Shown here: positions 18,850 through 24,304 of the stretch, piece by piece
Layout of the letters: every line of letters begins with the position of its first letter
How positions within the stretch are numbered: the stretch's first letter is position 1
NCBI GenBank assembly: GCA_016934015.1
Contig: JAFGTQ010000052.1
Location: forward strand, 1 to 33,229
Source of the DNA: Acholeplasmataceae bacterium
GTDB lineage: Bacteria > Bacillota_I > Bacilli_A > Acholeplasmatales > Acholeplasmataceae
DNA: 33,229 nucleotides
Direction: 5' to 3'
Program-made: the position numbers and the translations under genes
The notes under the pieces: model-generated
The model's input: only the letters and a program-made list of their open reading frames with translations
What the model was told of the DNA's origin: nothing
Databases searched by the model: none

Positions 18850-19019
18850 AAAATCAACTCCTTCGATAATTATCTATATTATAACTTAATCCACTATATA
18901 AAACGAAGTTGATGTGATAATCACTATAATTTATACACTTTTTTCCATAAAAAGCATTAAAAAAATAAATAAATTATGATATCATGGCACTATATTATCC
19001 GTTAACAAGGAGTGATTTC

Positions 19020-20381
19020 ATGCGTCGTTTATTCATTTTATCATTAATAATTTTAACTTCTCTTTTTTTAATATCATTCGAAGTCCAAGCAGAAGAGTAT
19101 GATGGTGACATAGCTGCTGGTACTTATTATGGAACATTGAACACCTTAAAGGACTCATCAACATATGGACTTGCATTTCCAGATCCAATTACTTTAACTT
19201 TTTATAAGCGTGGATTTACGTCTGAAACTGAATTTATTTTGCGCGCAGAATTGAATGGTGAATATTTTGAAAGTTTAGATGGACTTGATTTGAATACTAA
19301 TTCTATCGTGAGATGGCATCCATCGACTTATGCAGAATATAATTTAACTGCTGGGGATGAGCCAAGTTTTAATTTTAGATGGTCATCAAAAGAAATAGGA
19401 GATCATTTTATATCAATTGCTTCAAGTACATATTTCGATAGCGATGCAGGCGATTTCAAAGTCTATTTTAGAGCTGAATTGGCTGTGGATGAAGGTTTTA
19501 ATGTACCACAAATAAAATCAGTTCAAGAAGGCAGATTAAGTCGCATTGAAGAGGGCGAATATTATGAAGGAGATGGACCTTATAACCCTGGAGGAACCAC
19601 GGATCCTAGTGAAGATCCAGGAGATGACCCAGAACCAACATGTCCAAATCAAATTGATACTTCCAATATGTTACAGGTTCATGCAGGTGTAACCTATACA
19701 AAAGGTGATAATATTTATTTTAAGAATGAAGATTGTACGACAGGTAGAATTCGTAAGAATCAGCCTTTCTCAACCGGAGATATACTAACCACTGGATCTG
19801 GAGATACGGATTTCATGGAAGTATCACTGGGCACGGGCACTGAATTTTCTCAAGTGGGTGGTGAACCTTATTTTAGAATGCAACGCTTATCAATTTTTAG
19901 AGTCATGCCAGATGAAAAGGATGTTCGCGTCAGAATATCTAAAGGGAAAGTTATGTTTCGTGACATGATGTCTAAAGTCAAAGAATTATACTCTGATGAT
20001 TTTATTATTGAAACTCCGAGTGCAGTCACTAGCATACGTGGCACTGAACTTTATTTAGATGTTCAAGAAAATGGTGACACCGTGATTTATTTAACCCATG
20101 GAACAGTTGATGTGACAGATAATTATGGATACACAATCAATCTTATTGCTGGTCAAAAAGTAGAAGTCACTATGGATACCGGAATTGGGTTTGTCGATTT
20201 TATTTCTGAGGATGATTATTCTAGTTTTGAAATATATGAAATTGAAGAAGAAAGCAATTTTGTTTGGGGATTAATTTTAGTATTATTGATTGTTTCACCA
20301 ATTGTGATAGTATTCTTTGTTTTAAGAGCTATTAAGAGAAAACTATTCGGGAAAAAACAAAAATTAGAAAATAGAACTTGA
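19020..20381 (+). CDS. Secreted FecR-domain surface protein with C-terminal membrane anchor
   Basis: A 453-residue exported protein. Residues 1-24 are a signal peptide ending VQA before EEYDGD. An N-terminal domain of unknown family (about 25-175) is joined by a Pro/Gly/Asp/Thr-rich linker to a FecR-type beta domain (about 215-395), recognisable from TGSGDTDFMEVSLG, LSIFRVM, KGKVMFRDM, TPSAVTSIRGTELYLDV and LTHGTVDVTD. A hydrophobic helix and a basic tail (FVWGLILVLLIVSPIVIVF, then KRKLFGKK) anchor it. The frame opens earlier at 18984, but AAGGAG (19007-19012) is seven bases before the ATG at 19020, which also gives a proper signal peptide. No FecA or FecI partner is nearby, so an iron role should not be assumed. 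Confidence 0.8.
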   Translation: MRRLFILSLIILTSLFLISFEVQAEEYDGDIAAGTYYGTLNTLKDSSTYGLAFPDPITLTFYKRGFTSETEFILRAELNGEYFESLDGLDLNTNSIVRWHPSTYAEYNLTAGDEPSFNFRWSSKEIGDHFISIASSTYFDSDAGDFKVYFRAELAVDEGFNVPQIKSVQEGRLSRIEEGEYYEGDGPYNPGGTTDPSEDPGDDPEPTCPNQIDTSNMLQVHAGVTYTKGDNIYFKNEDCTTGRIRKNQPFSTGDILTTGSGDTDFMEVSLGTGTEFSQVGGEPYFRMQRLSIFRVMPDEKDVRVRISKGKVMFRDMMSKVKELYSDDFIIETPSAVTSIRGTELYLDVQENGDTVIYLTHGTVDVTDNYGYTINLIAGQKVEVTMDTGIGFVDFISEDDYSSFEIYEIEEESNFVWGLILVLLIVSPIVIVFFVLRAIKRKLFGKKQKLENRT

Positions 20382-20512: not shown

Positions 20513-22462
20513 ATGATGATCTACGAGAAAAAATATTTAGAATTACTTAGCCGCGAGTTTCCAACCGTACAACATGCGAGTAGTGAAATTATTAATTTAA
20601 GTGCAATCCTTAATCTTCCGAAGGGCACCGAAATTTTTATTACAGATATTCATGGAGAATTTGACGCATTCAATCATTACTTAAAAAATGCCTCCGGGAT
20701 TATCAAAGAAAAAATCGATATTATTTTTACGGATGAATCGGAAGAAAATCGTAGTAGACTGGCTTTTTTCATTTACTATCCTACCGATATGCTGAGTAAA
20801 TATCAAGCAAAAATTGATCCAAATGATTTTCATAAACTCGTTAGAAAAACACTCTATCAAATGGTACAATTATCAAAATATATCATTACAAAATATACTA
20901 AAAGCAAAGTTTCAAAAGCATTACCAAAAGAGTTTGGTTATATTATTACTGAATTACTATATGAATCATCAGATCACGAGGATAAAGAACGTTACTATCA
21001 AGCCATTATCGATTCCATTTTCGCAACTAAAAGAGAAAAGAAATTCATCGTAGAGATTAGTCGGTTTATTCGAAATATGGCAATCGATCGATTGCATATC
21101 GTTGGTGATATTTTTGATCGAGGACCAAAACCTCATTTAATTATGGAAAAACTTATTCCGAAACAAAATGTTGATATTCAATGGGGGAATCATGACATCA
21201 CATTTTTAGGTGCTGCATGTGGTTCTGAAGTTATGGTGGCTAATGTCATAAGAATTGCAGCTAGATATAGCAATCTTGACTATTTAGAAGATGGATACGG
21301 TATTAGTATGTTGCCTCTTGCAAGACTTGCACATAAATACTACGGTGATGATCTTTGCACTGAATTTATTCCCAAAAATAAAGAAGAAATCACGGAAGAA
21401 GATTTAAATTTTATGGCAAAAATCCATAAAGCCATTTCTGTGATTCAATTTAAGCTAGAGTATGAAGTTATATCACGTAATCCAAATTTTCAACTTGAAG
21501 ATCGACTATTACTTGACAAGCTAAATTTAGAAGACAAAACGATTGTTATTGACGGTACATCATATTCCTTGTTAGATTCAAATTTTCCAACAATCGATCA
21601 ACACAATCCTTATCAACTCAATGAGGATGAATGTGATGTCATTAATCACTTAACTCAATTATTTTTGCACAACGAAATGCTTCAGAAACATGCTAAATAT
21701 TTAATTCAAAAAGGATCAATGTATTTGAAATATAATGGAAATTTATTATTTCATGCTGTAATTCCAATGAATACAGACGGATCTTTCTTAGCCCAAGAAT
21801 TTGATGGTTTATTTTATAAAGGGAAAGCACTATTTGACGTTTGCGAACAAAAAATTAGACAAGCCTATTTAAATCGATACACACCAAACCATGATAAAGA
21901 TATCTTTATGTATTTGTGGCAAGGTTCAACAAGCCCATTATTTGGAAAACATACCATGAAAACTTTTGAACGTTATTTTATTGCGGATAAAGCTATTAGA
22001 AAAGAAAATAATAACGCATATTATAAAAACAGAGTGGAAGAAGCTTCTTTAAAGAAAATATATAAGGAGTTTAATCTTGATTTTCAAAGATCTAAAATTG
22101 TAAATGGACATGTTCCTATGGATATTACAAAAGGAGACCAAGTCATACTTGGTAATCATCGAATTTATTCAATTGATGGTGGTATGAGTAAACAATATTC
22201 TGATACAACATCGATTGGTGGGTATAGTATGATCAGTGACTCCCATGCTTATTTTTTAGTGTCTCATGAACGATTTGATACTTACCATGCGCTTATTCAA
22301 AAAGAAAAAGACATTGTATCTGTCACAAGAAGTGAAGAACTAAATACAAGAAGAACTTATATTTATGATACAGATCAGGGTGCAGAAATTGGTGAAAGAA
22401 TTCAAGATTTATATAAACTTCTTGAAGCTTATAGAAATGGAACAATCAAAGAAATTGGATAG
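20513..22462 (+). CDS. fbp: Fructose-1,6-bisphosphatase class III
   Basis: Hydrolyses fructose-1,6-bisphosphate to fructose-6-phosphate, the committed gluconeogenic step. The 649-residue length and metallophosphatase motifs identify the Bacillota-type class III enzyme (FBPase_2): FITDIHGEFDAF near residue 42, VGDIFDRGPKP, QWGNHDITFLGAACGSEVM, then a late NGHVPMDITKGD and SIDGGMSKQYS. GAGGG lies a few bases before a pair of ATG codons at 20513 and 20516; either could be used. No gluconeogenic neighbours are in view. It is followed by a probable non-coding RNA gene. I find no clear promoter with standard spacing in the 130-bp upstream gap. Confidence 0.96.
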   Translation: MMIYEKKYLELLSREFPTVQHASSEIINLSAILNLPKGTEIFITDIHGEFDAFNHYLKNASGIIKEKIDIIFTDESEENRSRLAFFIYYPTDMLSKYQAKIDPNDFHKLVRKTLYQMVQLSKYIITKYTKSKVSKALPKEFGYIITELLYESSDHEDKERYYQAIIDSIFATKREKKFIVEISRFIRNMAIDRLHIVGDIFDRGPKPHLIMEKLIPKQNVDIQWGNHDITFLGAACGSEVMVANVIRIAARYSNLDYLEDGYGISMLPLARLAHKYYGDDLCTEFIPKNKEEITEEDLNFMAKIHKAISVIQFKLEYEVISRNPNFQLEDRLLLDKLNLEDKTIVIDGTSYSLLDSNFPTIDQHNPYQLNEDECDVINHLTQLFLHNEMLQKHAKYLIQKGSMYLKYNGNLLFHAVIPMNTDGSFLAQEFDGLFYKGKALFDVCEQKIRQAYLNRYTPNHDKDIFMYLWQGSTSPLFGKHTMKTFERYFIADKAIRKENNNAYYKNRVEEASLKKIYKEFNLDFQRSKIVNGHVPMDITKGDQVILGNHRIYSIDGGMSKQYSDTTSIGGYSMISDSHAYFLVSHERFDTYHALIQKEKDIVSVTRSEELNTRRTYIYDTDQGAEIGERIQDLYKLLEAYRNGTIKEIG

Positions 22463-22487: not shown

Positions 22488-22517
22488 TTGGACATTATAA
22501 ATCTTCTATGATATAGT
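22488..22517 (+). promoter_or_regulatory. Promoter of the structured RNA
   Basis: TTGGAC (22488-22493), an 18-bp spacer and TATAGT (22512-22517), with TGA just before it giving an extended -10. The expected start is at about 22521-22525, exactly where the 5' arm of the RNA stem begins. Confidence 0.6.
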
Positions 22518-22518
22518 G

Positions 22519-22733
22519 AAGGTGTATTCCCCATATATGGATTTAAGTTTAAACGATTTAAGAGTTTCAAATAGATTTGTGTGTTGGGATTTACGCTTTT
22601 CTGTTAAGCTCAATATGAGCATGAAGTAGTTTATAATCTTTAAGTTTATTAGTTTATATATTTACGGATTTCTTGTGTATGTATATATGGGGAATACCAA
22701 TTAATAAAAAAACCAGTCGATGACTGGTTTTTC
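22519..22733 (+). ncRNA. Probable independent structured RNA, 6S-like architecture
   Basis: No open frame of note lies here. GTATTCCCCATATAT (22524-22538) pairs perfectly over 15 bp with ATATATGGGGAATAC (22683-22697), closing a span of about 175 bases. A hairpin GCTCA-ATA-TGAGC sits at the centre (22608-22620), and weaker pairings (22550-22563 with about 22637-22656) suggest a rod with internal loops. A promoter lies directly upstream and an intrinsic terminator directly downstream. Paired ends, central bubble and size fit 6S RNA, the regulator of sigma-A RNA polymerase, but I do not recognise conserved 6S sequence. A small inverted-repeat element (MITE) is the main alternative. Confidence 0.5.
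22708..22732. terminator. Bidirectional terminator
   Basis: AAAAACCAGTC (22708-22718) and GACTGGTTTTT (22722-22732) form a perfect 11-bp stem with loop GAT. It ends the structured RNA on the plus strand and the 5'-nucleotidase-like gene on the minus strand. Confidence 0.88.
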
Positions 22734-22735
22734 AT

Positions 22736-24304
22736 TTAATTAAATTCTTGTTTGGACACCTTAACATTTTTGACATATTCAATTTGAATTTTTTCTTTTT
22801 TCTGAATATCATTGATCAATAATTCTGTAATATCGAGTGGAAACTCTTTAATTATTTTAAGTTTTTTATGCCACAAAATATTTCCTCCACCACTCATCCG
22901 ATATGAATTCAAAACAATCGTGAAACGATCATCTTTTTTAATCTCCTGATTTTGGTAGGAAACACGTTTAACTTCATTGGGCTTATTTGTGAGAACAATA
23001 ATTTCATATTCAATACCATCAAAAATATCATAATTGTATAATTCCTTTTTTGGATATAGATAAGAAGGATTAATCATAAATTTGTTTTCATCATTCAAAT
23101 CAAAAAATTGAGCATTATGTGTTAATGCTTCTATTAGAGTTTCTCCGGTAATTTCACATAAAATGAGTGTATTAGGAAATACATAAGTGTTTAAAACATC
23201 CCGTATGGTGATAATCTGATGAAAGCCAGTAACGTCATTTCCTAAACTACAACAACTGATGGTTGCACCGGTCGCTTTCATTTGAACCTCATTAATGTAT
23301 TGAAAAATAGGATGTTTATGAAGTCTTGCATCTAAAGGATCTTCAATTAGAAAGGTTGAAGATGCTTTTCCTATGGCTTGATTGAGTTGGATATTGGATT
23401 TTTGAATAAAATTTTCTAAGTGAGTTAATACGTTTGGATCATCATCAAAATTTTCCATCGAAACTAATTCTCCATCAATATGATGAACTTTCCATTTTTT
23501 TTGTTTTACGAAATCAACCTTCGTGTGAGACACATGCGAACCAGCATAACCAGGTTGATGTGTGTATCGATTTTTTTGATGAATTGTGATGAGGCGATGT
23601 TCATGACCTGTGAGCAGTAAATCGATGGCTTTAATTTCTTTAAAAATTTGATATCCTAAATTTTCTTCGTTATTTTTTGCTTCAATAGCACCTGTGGCAA
23701 GATTCTTTCCATAACTTCCATGGTAGGCAACAATGATATAATCGGGATGTTCATTTTTTTTGATAAAACCAACCATTCTTTTTGCGCTTTCGAAGGCATT
23801 CTCTATAATGATGTCACCCAAAACCTCTTTTGATTCCCAATGAGAAATGTAGTTGTTGGTAATACCGATGATTGCGATTTTAGGTCCATCATTAAATGTT
23901 TTAATAGCATATGCATAGTTAAAATACAAGGATTCACCACGAAATACATTCGAACATAATGTTTTTGCATGAAGTGATTGCGTGAATTGTTTTAAATGCG
24001 TTAAGCCATAATTAAAATCGTGGTTTCCAGGAATAAAATAGTCGTATTTAATCAAATTCATAGTTTCGGAGAAAGGATTGAATGCTTGATCATGATTTTC
24101 TTTATAAATATATGCGAGTGGGCTTCCTTGAATAGTATCACCTAAATCAATCTTAATTTGATGGCGATGTGTCTGTGTCTTAAAAAAACTTGAAATTCTC
24201 GCGAACCCCTTATTTAAAGGATTATTGTCTCGGTATGAATCACTGGTTAAATGTCCGTGAGTATCGGAGGTGTGATAAATATGAAGTTCAAATTTTTGGT
24301 TCAT
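22736..24304 (-). CDS. 5'-nucleotidase/2',3'-cyclic phosphodiesterase-family metallophosphoesterase
   Basis: A 522-residue two-domain protein that should release phosphate from nucleotides or related esters. The N-terminal calcineurin-like domain carries the two-metal motifs HTSDTHGH (Asp14, His16 region), DLGDTIQGSP, PGNHDFNYG, the AYHGSYGK histidine and TGHEHRL. The C-terminal 5'-nucleotidase domain (about 305-500) supplies substrate contacts and includes the late SYRMSGGGNILWHK. No signal peptide is seen, so it is probably cytoplasmic like B. subtilis YunD, unlike secreted UshA. It is divergent from the phnD operon and shares a 136-bp control region containing PhoP-box-like repeats, suggesting joint phosphate control. 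Confidence 0.9.
   Translation of the reverse strand: MNQKFELHIYHTSDTHGHLTSDSYRDNNPLNKGFARISSFFKTQTHRHQIKIDLGDTIQGSPLAYIYKENHDQAFNPFSETMNLIKYDYFIPGNHDFNYGLTHLKQFTQSLHAKTLCSNVFRGESLYFNYAYAIKTFNDGPKIAIIGITNNYISHWESKEVLGDIIIENAFESAKRMVGFIKKNEHPDYIIVAYHGSYGKNLATGAIEAKNNEENLGYQIFKEIKAIDLLLTGHEHRLITIHQKNRYTHQPGYAGSHVSHTKVDFVKQKKWKVHHIDGELVSMENFDDDPNVLTHLENFIQKSNIQLNQAIGKASSTFLIEDPLDARLHKHPIFQYINEVQMKATGATISCCSLGNDVTGFHQIITIRDVLNTYVFPNTLILCEITGETLIEALTHNAQFFDLNDENKFMINPSYLYPKKELYNYDIFDGIEYEIIVLTNKPNEVKRVSYQNQEIKKDDRFTIVLNSYRMSGGGNILWHKKLKIIKEFPLDITELLINDIQKKEKIQIEYVKNVKVSKQEFN

Follow-up and report, generated by a model that had tools for sequence, protein, structure and literature searches.

The global regulator 6S RNA (SsrS, RF00013) has a length of about 130–240 nt, paired ends, an independent promoter and terminator and a single copy, all of which are shared by the small RNA reported here. 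Some Firmicutes, Bacillus subtilis among them, have two 6S RNAs, and the closing stem of 6S is typically shorter and less perfect than the one described below. Nearest in architecture are the Y RNAs and YrlA (RF02553), with a conserved end-to-end stem, to which a protein binds in the Y RNAs, and a variable loop; the layout of the present RNA, in which the helix and two motifs are conserved and the loop is free, is similar. In the sponge RNAs CsrB/RsmZ and CrcZ, the loop is loosely structured and a short motif recurs in it, a likeness that extends to part of the present RNA family only.

The RNA studied here lies in the window (the whole stretch of 33,229 nt that was analysed) of an Acholeplasmataceae genome. 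It is a previously undescribed small RNA that resembles 6S in outline only, its ends being zipped together by 14–16 near-unchanging letters in at least 32 genomes. Unlike 6S, it combines a near-invariant perfect helix with a multibranched, variable interior, and no sequence or covariance-model similarity links the two. It also differs from the Y RNAs, as no tRNA-like domain was found and 160 genomes of its order have no Ro60/TROVE protein over the cutoff, and from the sponges, in which a long closing helix is atypical and the motif is GGA or CA instead of GAUUUA. A literature search yielded no paper describing this closing-stem RNA, and none on 6S RNA in Acholeplasma.

Results

The locus and its fold

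The RNA is located between fbp and a convergent gene for a 5'-nucleotidase-like protein, as the preliminary description had placed it, and its parts are listed in Table 1. Read in the opposite direction, the terminator could equally serve the nucleotidase gene. Upstream of fbp, a FecR-domain protein with a C-terminal membrane segment is encoded at 18984–20381 (the Pfam match is weak, above the cutoff).

Table 1. Features of the closing-stem RNA locus and its neighbors (window coordinates)
Feature	Position	Strand	Remarks
Closing-stem ncRNA, arm to arm	22524..22697	+	174 nt; predicted start no more than 3 nt from 22524
-35 hexamer TGGACA	22489..22494	+	10/12 consensus matches together with the -10; 17-nt spacer
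Extended -10, TG-A-TATAGT	22509..22517	+	ends 6 nt upstream of the 5' arm
5' arm of closing stem, GTATTCCCCATATAT	22524..22538	+	nearly invariant in 32 sequences
Interior motif UUGGGAUUUAC, consensus GUAUUGGGAUUUAC	22584..22594	+	position 62 in the window copy
3' motif UUUCUUGUG, consensus UUUCUUGUA	22669..22677	+	conserved; about 24 nt separate it from the 3' end
3' arm of closing stem, ATATATGGGGAATAC	22683..22697	+	pairs with the 5' arm
Intrinsic terminator, 11-bp stem and U tract	22708..22732	+	just beyond the 3' arm
Central 4-bp hairpin GCTC-AATAT-GAGC	22608..22620	+	in the sequence, not significant
Upstream neighbor, Firmicute-type fructose-1,6-bisphosphatase (FBPase_2)	20513..22462	+	E 2.8e-245
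Downstream convergent neighbor, Metallophos/5'-nucleotidase-like protein	22736..24304	-	domain match

The perfect 15-bp closing stem was verified. No second inverted repeat of this length, at a spacing of 20–300 nt, exists in the window, and of 30 shuffled windows 29 contained none. The predicted fold of positions 22520–22735, terminator included, has the closing stem fully formed and a free energy of -62.4 kcal/mol (z = -6.8), and none of 200 shuffles was as stable. The hairpin that had been described at the exact middle is indeed present in the sequence; its center, however, is displaced by about 3 nt, it pairs with a probability of 0.066, and it lacks conservation among the homologs.

Homologs and their distribution

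The searches suggested earlier, against Rfam and with its 6S model, gave no match for the window RNA at the thresholds of any family, and below threshold the matches were at chance level only. A family-wide search for the arms recovered many genomes in which the two lie about 130–210 nt apart, and covariance models were built from such arm-bearing sequences (R2 from 23 and R3 from 29). With these models, the closing-stem RNA was detected in 26 of the 88 family genomes, in 29 of the 160 genomes of the order Acholeplasmatales, where members also occur in another family, and in three genomes outside the order and within the same class, the class sample being 395 genomes, mostly draft metagenome assemblies, and the E-values of the models being rough. 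A 27th carrier in the family (G038) has the 3' end of the RNA truncated at a contig end, and the total is about 33 genomes (at least 32), with Peloplasma aerotolerans among the named carriers.

Two genera are almost fully covered, with all five genomes of g10 and 19 of the 20 of g11 (G038 included); the window genome's own genus has two carriers out of three, and g13 one out of three. R2 and R3 did not find the RNA in the remaining genera of the family (88 genomes, under strict filters, so that absence is not proof). Because most family genera are without it, the lifestyle as a whole does not require the RNA. Its length varies from 128 to 240 nt across the members, and it is present in single copy in the window genome and in every other carrier except one. 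In that genome (G025), two identical copies with identical flanks (L130 2354–2531 and L131 2284–2461) lie about 99 kb apart, which is either a segmental duplication or an assembly artefact; the contamination estimate of the assembly is 7%.

The preliminary description had left room for a new class of RNA, and this part of it held, as R2 and R3 recovered a family with no match in Rfam. The closing-stem RNA thus very probably founds a new family, independent and distinct from 6S, of Acholeplasmatales and a small number of further bacteria in the class.

Conservation of the stem and of two motifs

Over 32 sequences, 98.6% of the closing-stem cells are paired, and sliding the pairing partner by one base lowers this value to 28–35%. 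No change in pairs 1–13 breaks the pairing: five sequences have UG in place of UA, and the further changes are CG to UG, AU to GU, and UA to GC. The last, with both sides changed in five related sequences, is the only compensated pair revealed by the alignment of homologs that had been proposed as a check, and the others are wobbles; covariation is thin because nine pairs never vary. Since the wobble changes break the symmetry expected of two DNA copies, pairing in RNA is favored over a DNA site, and a DNA-level role of the nearly invariant arms is still conceivable. Both arms would be kept invariant if sequence constrained one of them, as the transcript start or as a contact, and pairing constrained the other.

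Two conserved, putatively single-stranded motifs accompany the helix. In most members, about 50 nt separate the first, GUAUUGGGAUUUAC, from the 5' end, and the distance of the second, UUUCUUGUA, from the 3' end is nearly fixed. The 6-mers GGGATT and CTTGTA occur at about 20 and 19 times their dinucleotide expectation, respectively. The stretch between the motifs is C-poor (3%–13%), freely variable in length and differently folded in each member; a second conserved helix within the loop is unsupported, the consensus keeping the closing stem alone.

A gene of its own

An extended -10 with the start point at the 5' arm, followed by a terminator just past the 3' arm, had been noted in the window, and both recur in the homologs. 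All 29 homologous loci have a TANNNT hexamer whose end is exactly 6 nt upstream of the 5' arm (in L007 it is TATAAT, with another hexamer overlapping), and several homologs have a TTGACA- or TTGCA-like -35 at the corresponding place. In 27 of the 29 loci, a hairpin and U tract resembling a terminator lie within 8–31 nt downstream of the 3' arm, and the three members outside the order have the -10 in the same placement and terminators as well.

The loci represent at least 12 different gene contexts. Neighbors so unrelated, and an internal length so variable, rule out that the RNA is the leader of any single gene. No ORF is conserved in the RNA, the longest ones varying in place and length among members, and a coding reading was rejected: the 30-codon ORF at 22537–22629 occurs only in the window genome, its start codon being absent in a sister sequence 95% identical. 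A predicted promoter and terminator that accompany the RNA through unrelated contexts, and the lack of a conserved ORF, mark the locus as a small RNA gene, in keeping with the independent structured RNA first proposed. Judging from the sequence, the RNA begins at the first base of a 14–16-bp closing helix, runs to a terminator of its own and is untied to its neighbors.

A separate 6S locus

The architecture had originally been considered to fit 6S RNA, a reading that did not survive comparison with these genomes. The RF00013 model found no match in the whole of the window's own genome at E ≤ 10, and the minimum-energy folds have more than one hairpin in 30 of the 32 members; a rod with a large central bubble was sought and is not conserved. 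In relatives, RF00013 gave weak full-length matches at other loci, and a 6S model (R1) built from four of these detected a 153-nt RNA, once per genome, in 54 of the 88 family genomes, comprising almost all non-phytoplasma members. Own-genome 6S was located by R1 at G000:C31:11618–11769 (L146 619–770; E 2.0e-22); other loci of this divergent family include L046, L047, L048, L050 and more. R1 also reaches other families of the class, where one of its matches, L123, is Rfam 6S over its full length (56.5 bits against a cutoff of 46.4).

At its threshold, the Rfam model reached none of the 88 family genomes: most members of the divergent family score too low for it, and their link to 6S consists of the weak matches together with L123 and L124. 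As this separate locus is tied to Rfam 6S, the genome's own 6S is a different gene from the closing-stem RNA. A divergent 6S family of Acholeplasmataceae, missed by the Rfam model, was in this way uncovered alongside. In the putative phytoplasmas (genus g12), R1 gave only two marginal matches, and these bacteria may have lost 6S.

Y RNA comparison

A Y RNA identity was also rejected. None of the 160 order genomes has a Ro60 protein (TROVE, PF05731) over the cutoff, at which the positive control was detected; ARAGORN found no tRNA-like gene in the window, and the YrlA model had no match. Since Ro60 is missing, any Y-RNA-like action would use another protein.

Discussion

That the closing-stem RNA is itself a divergent or second 6S, binding RNA polymerase as a promoter mimic, would agree with its length, paired ends and independent promoter, and with the pairs of 6S RNAs in some Firmicutes. 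The silence of RF00013 in the window's own genome, the bona fide 6S family elsewhere in these genomes, the multibranched folds without a conserved upper rod and the unusually long and perfect helix all speak against it, and we regard such a 6S as very unlikely. The inverted ends could instead belong to a MITE-like mobile element that happens to carry a promoter. In 16 genomes with both RNAs, 6S keeps one gene context and the closing-stem RNA occupies six, and in one genome outside the order (G318) the latter is nearer to the family than is its 6S, a copy that may represent a transfer. Against mobility of this kind, however, the only genome with more than one copy has a whole segment duplicated, flanks included; the -10 and the terminator stand at fixed places outside the repeats; and neither the scattered copies nor the target-site duplications named beforehand as grounds for abandoning an RNA gene were found, as arm sequence elsewhere is at chance level and the arm edges of the 29 loci have no consistent duplications. 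Moreover, distances between closing-stem RNAs track 6S distances (Mantel rho 0.55, with 0 of 999 permutations as high), so that inheritance in the order has mostly been vertical while the gene relocates. A MITE was rejected on these grounds and is, in our opinion, extremely improbable. A virus or plasmid origin was rejected too: no relatives were found in phages and plasmids, and in 17 viral contigs one arm occurred by chance without its partner, one of these cases being cut off by the end of the contig.

The remaining explanations concern how an RNA gene of this kind would act, presumably in trans. Our tentative proposal is that the blunt helix joins both ends, hiding them from single-strand ribonucleases, and positions GUAUUGGGAUUUAC, by the 5' arm, and UUUCUUGUA, by the 3' arm, for contact with a partner, the likeliest being a protein able to read helix and motifs together, with the C-poor middle serving as a flexible loop. 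A regulator in which one or both motifs bind mRNA targets and the closed ends give stability is nearly as likely, hence a possibility of about the same modest order: the motifs are kept where the remaining interior varies, as would be expected of a seed. The invariant helix would be superfluous for such a role, though, and the sole complementarity found fared poorly. It joins the interior motif (GUAUUGGGAUU) to a conserved 6S stretch (AAUCCCGAUAC, at about 80–95 of 6S), with up to 10–11 bp in some genomes, but pairs within one genome did not surpass mixed pairs (permutation P 0.74), and 6S of the order's other family has lost AAUCCC while the motif persists. An RNA targeting 6S was rejected accordingly, and the match is probably a coincidence. 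Sequestration of an RNA-binding protein by repeated GAUUUA in the loop, in the manner of CsrB or CrcZ, we consider doubtful. GATTTA is observed 18 times outside the conserved positions against 2.4 expected, at 8.0 times expectation in the RNA and 1.7 times in same-strand flanks, and the variable middle of 15 diverged members has 31 GATT where 13.6 are expected; yet GATTTA is not over-represented in every member, and several, the window's own middle part included, have no GATT excess. Repeats of the CsrA or TRAP type were rejected, as GGA (5 observed, 5.6 expected) and NAG spacing are not enriched.

Should a protein partner be confirmed, the closing-stem RNA might represent a new class of ribonucleoprotein RNA in wall-less bacteria and their relatives, with helix and motifs binding a dedicated protein and a gene that relocates while remaining in single copy; this wider reading is possible and is offered with reserve. 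Few regulators are known in wall-less bacteria. One published scan method for structured RNAs relies on G+C-rich intergenic regions (PMC8632094), and an A+T-rich RNA such as the present one is likely to be skipped by scans of that kind. Its near-universal presence in two genera, and a helix that has stayed frozen across so great an evolutionary distance, point to a strong partner, which the closing-stem RNA could be used as bait to fish out.
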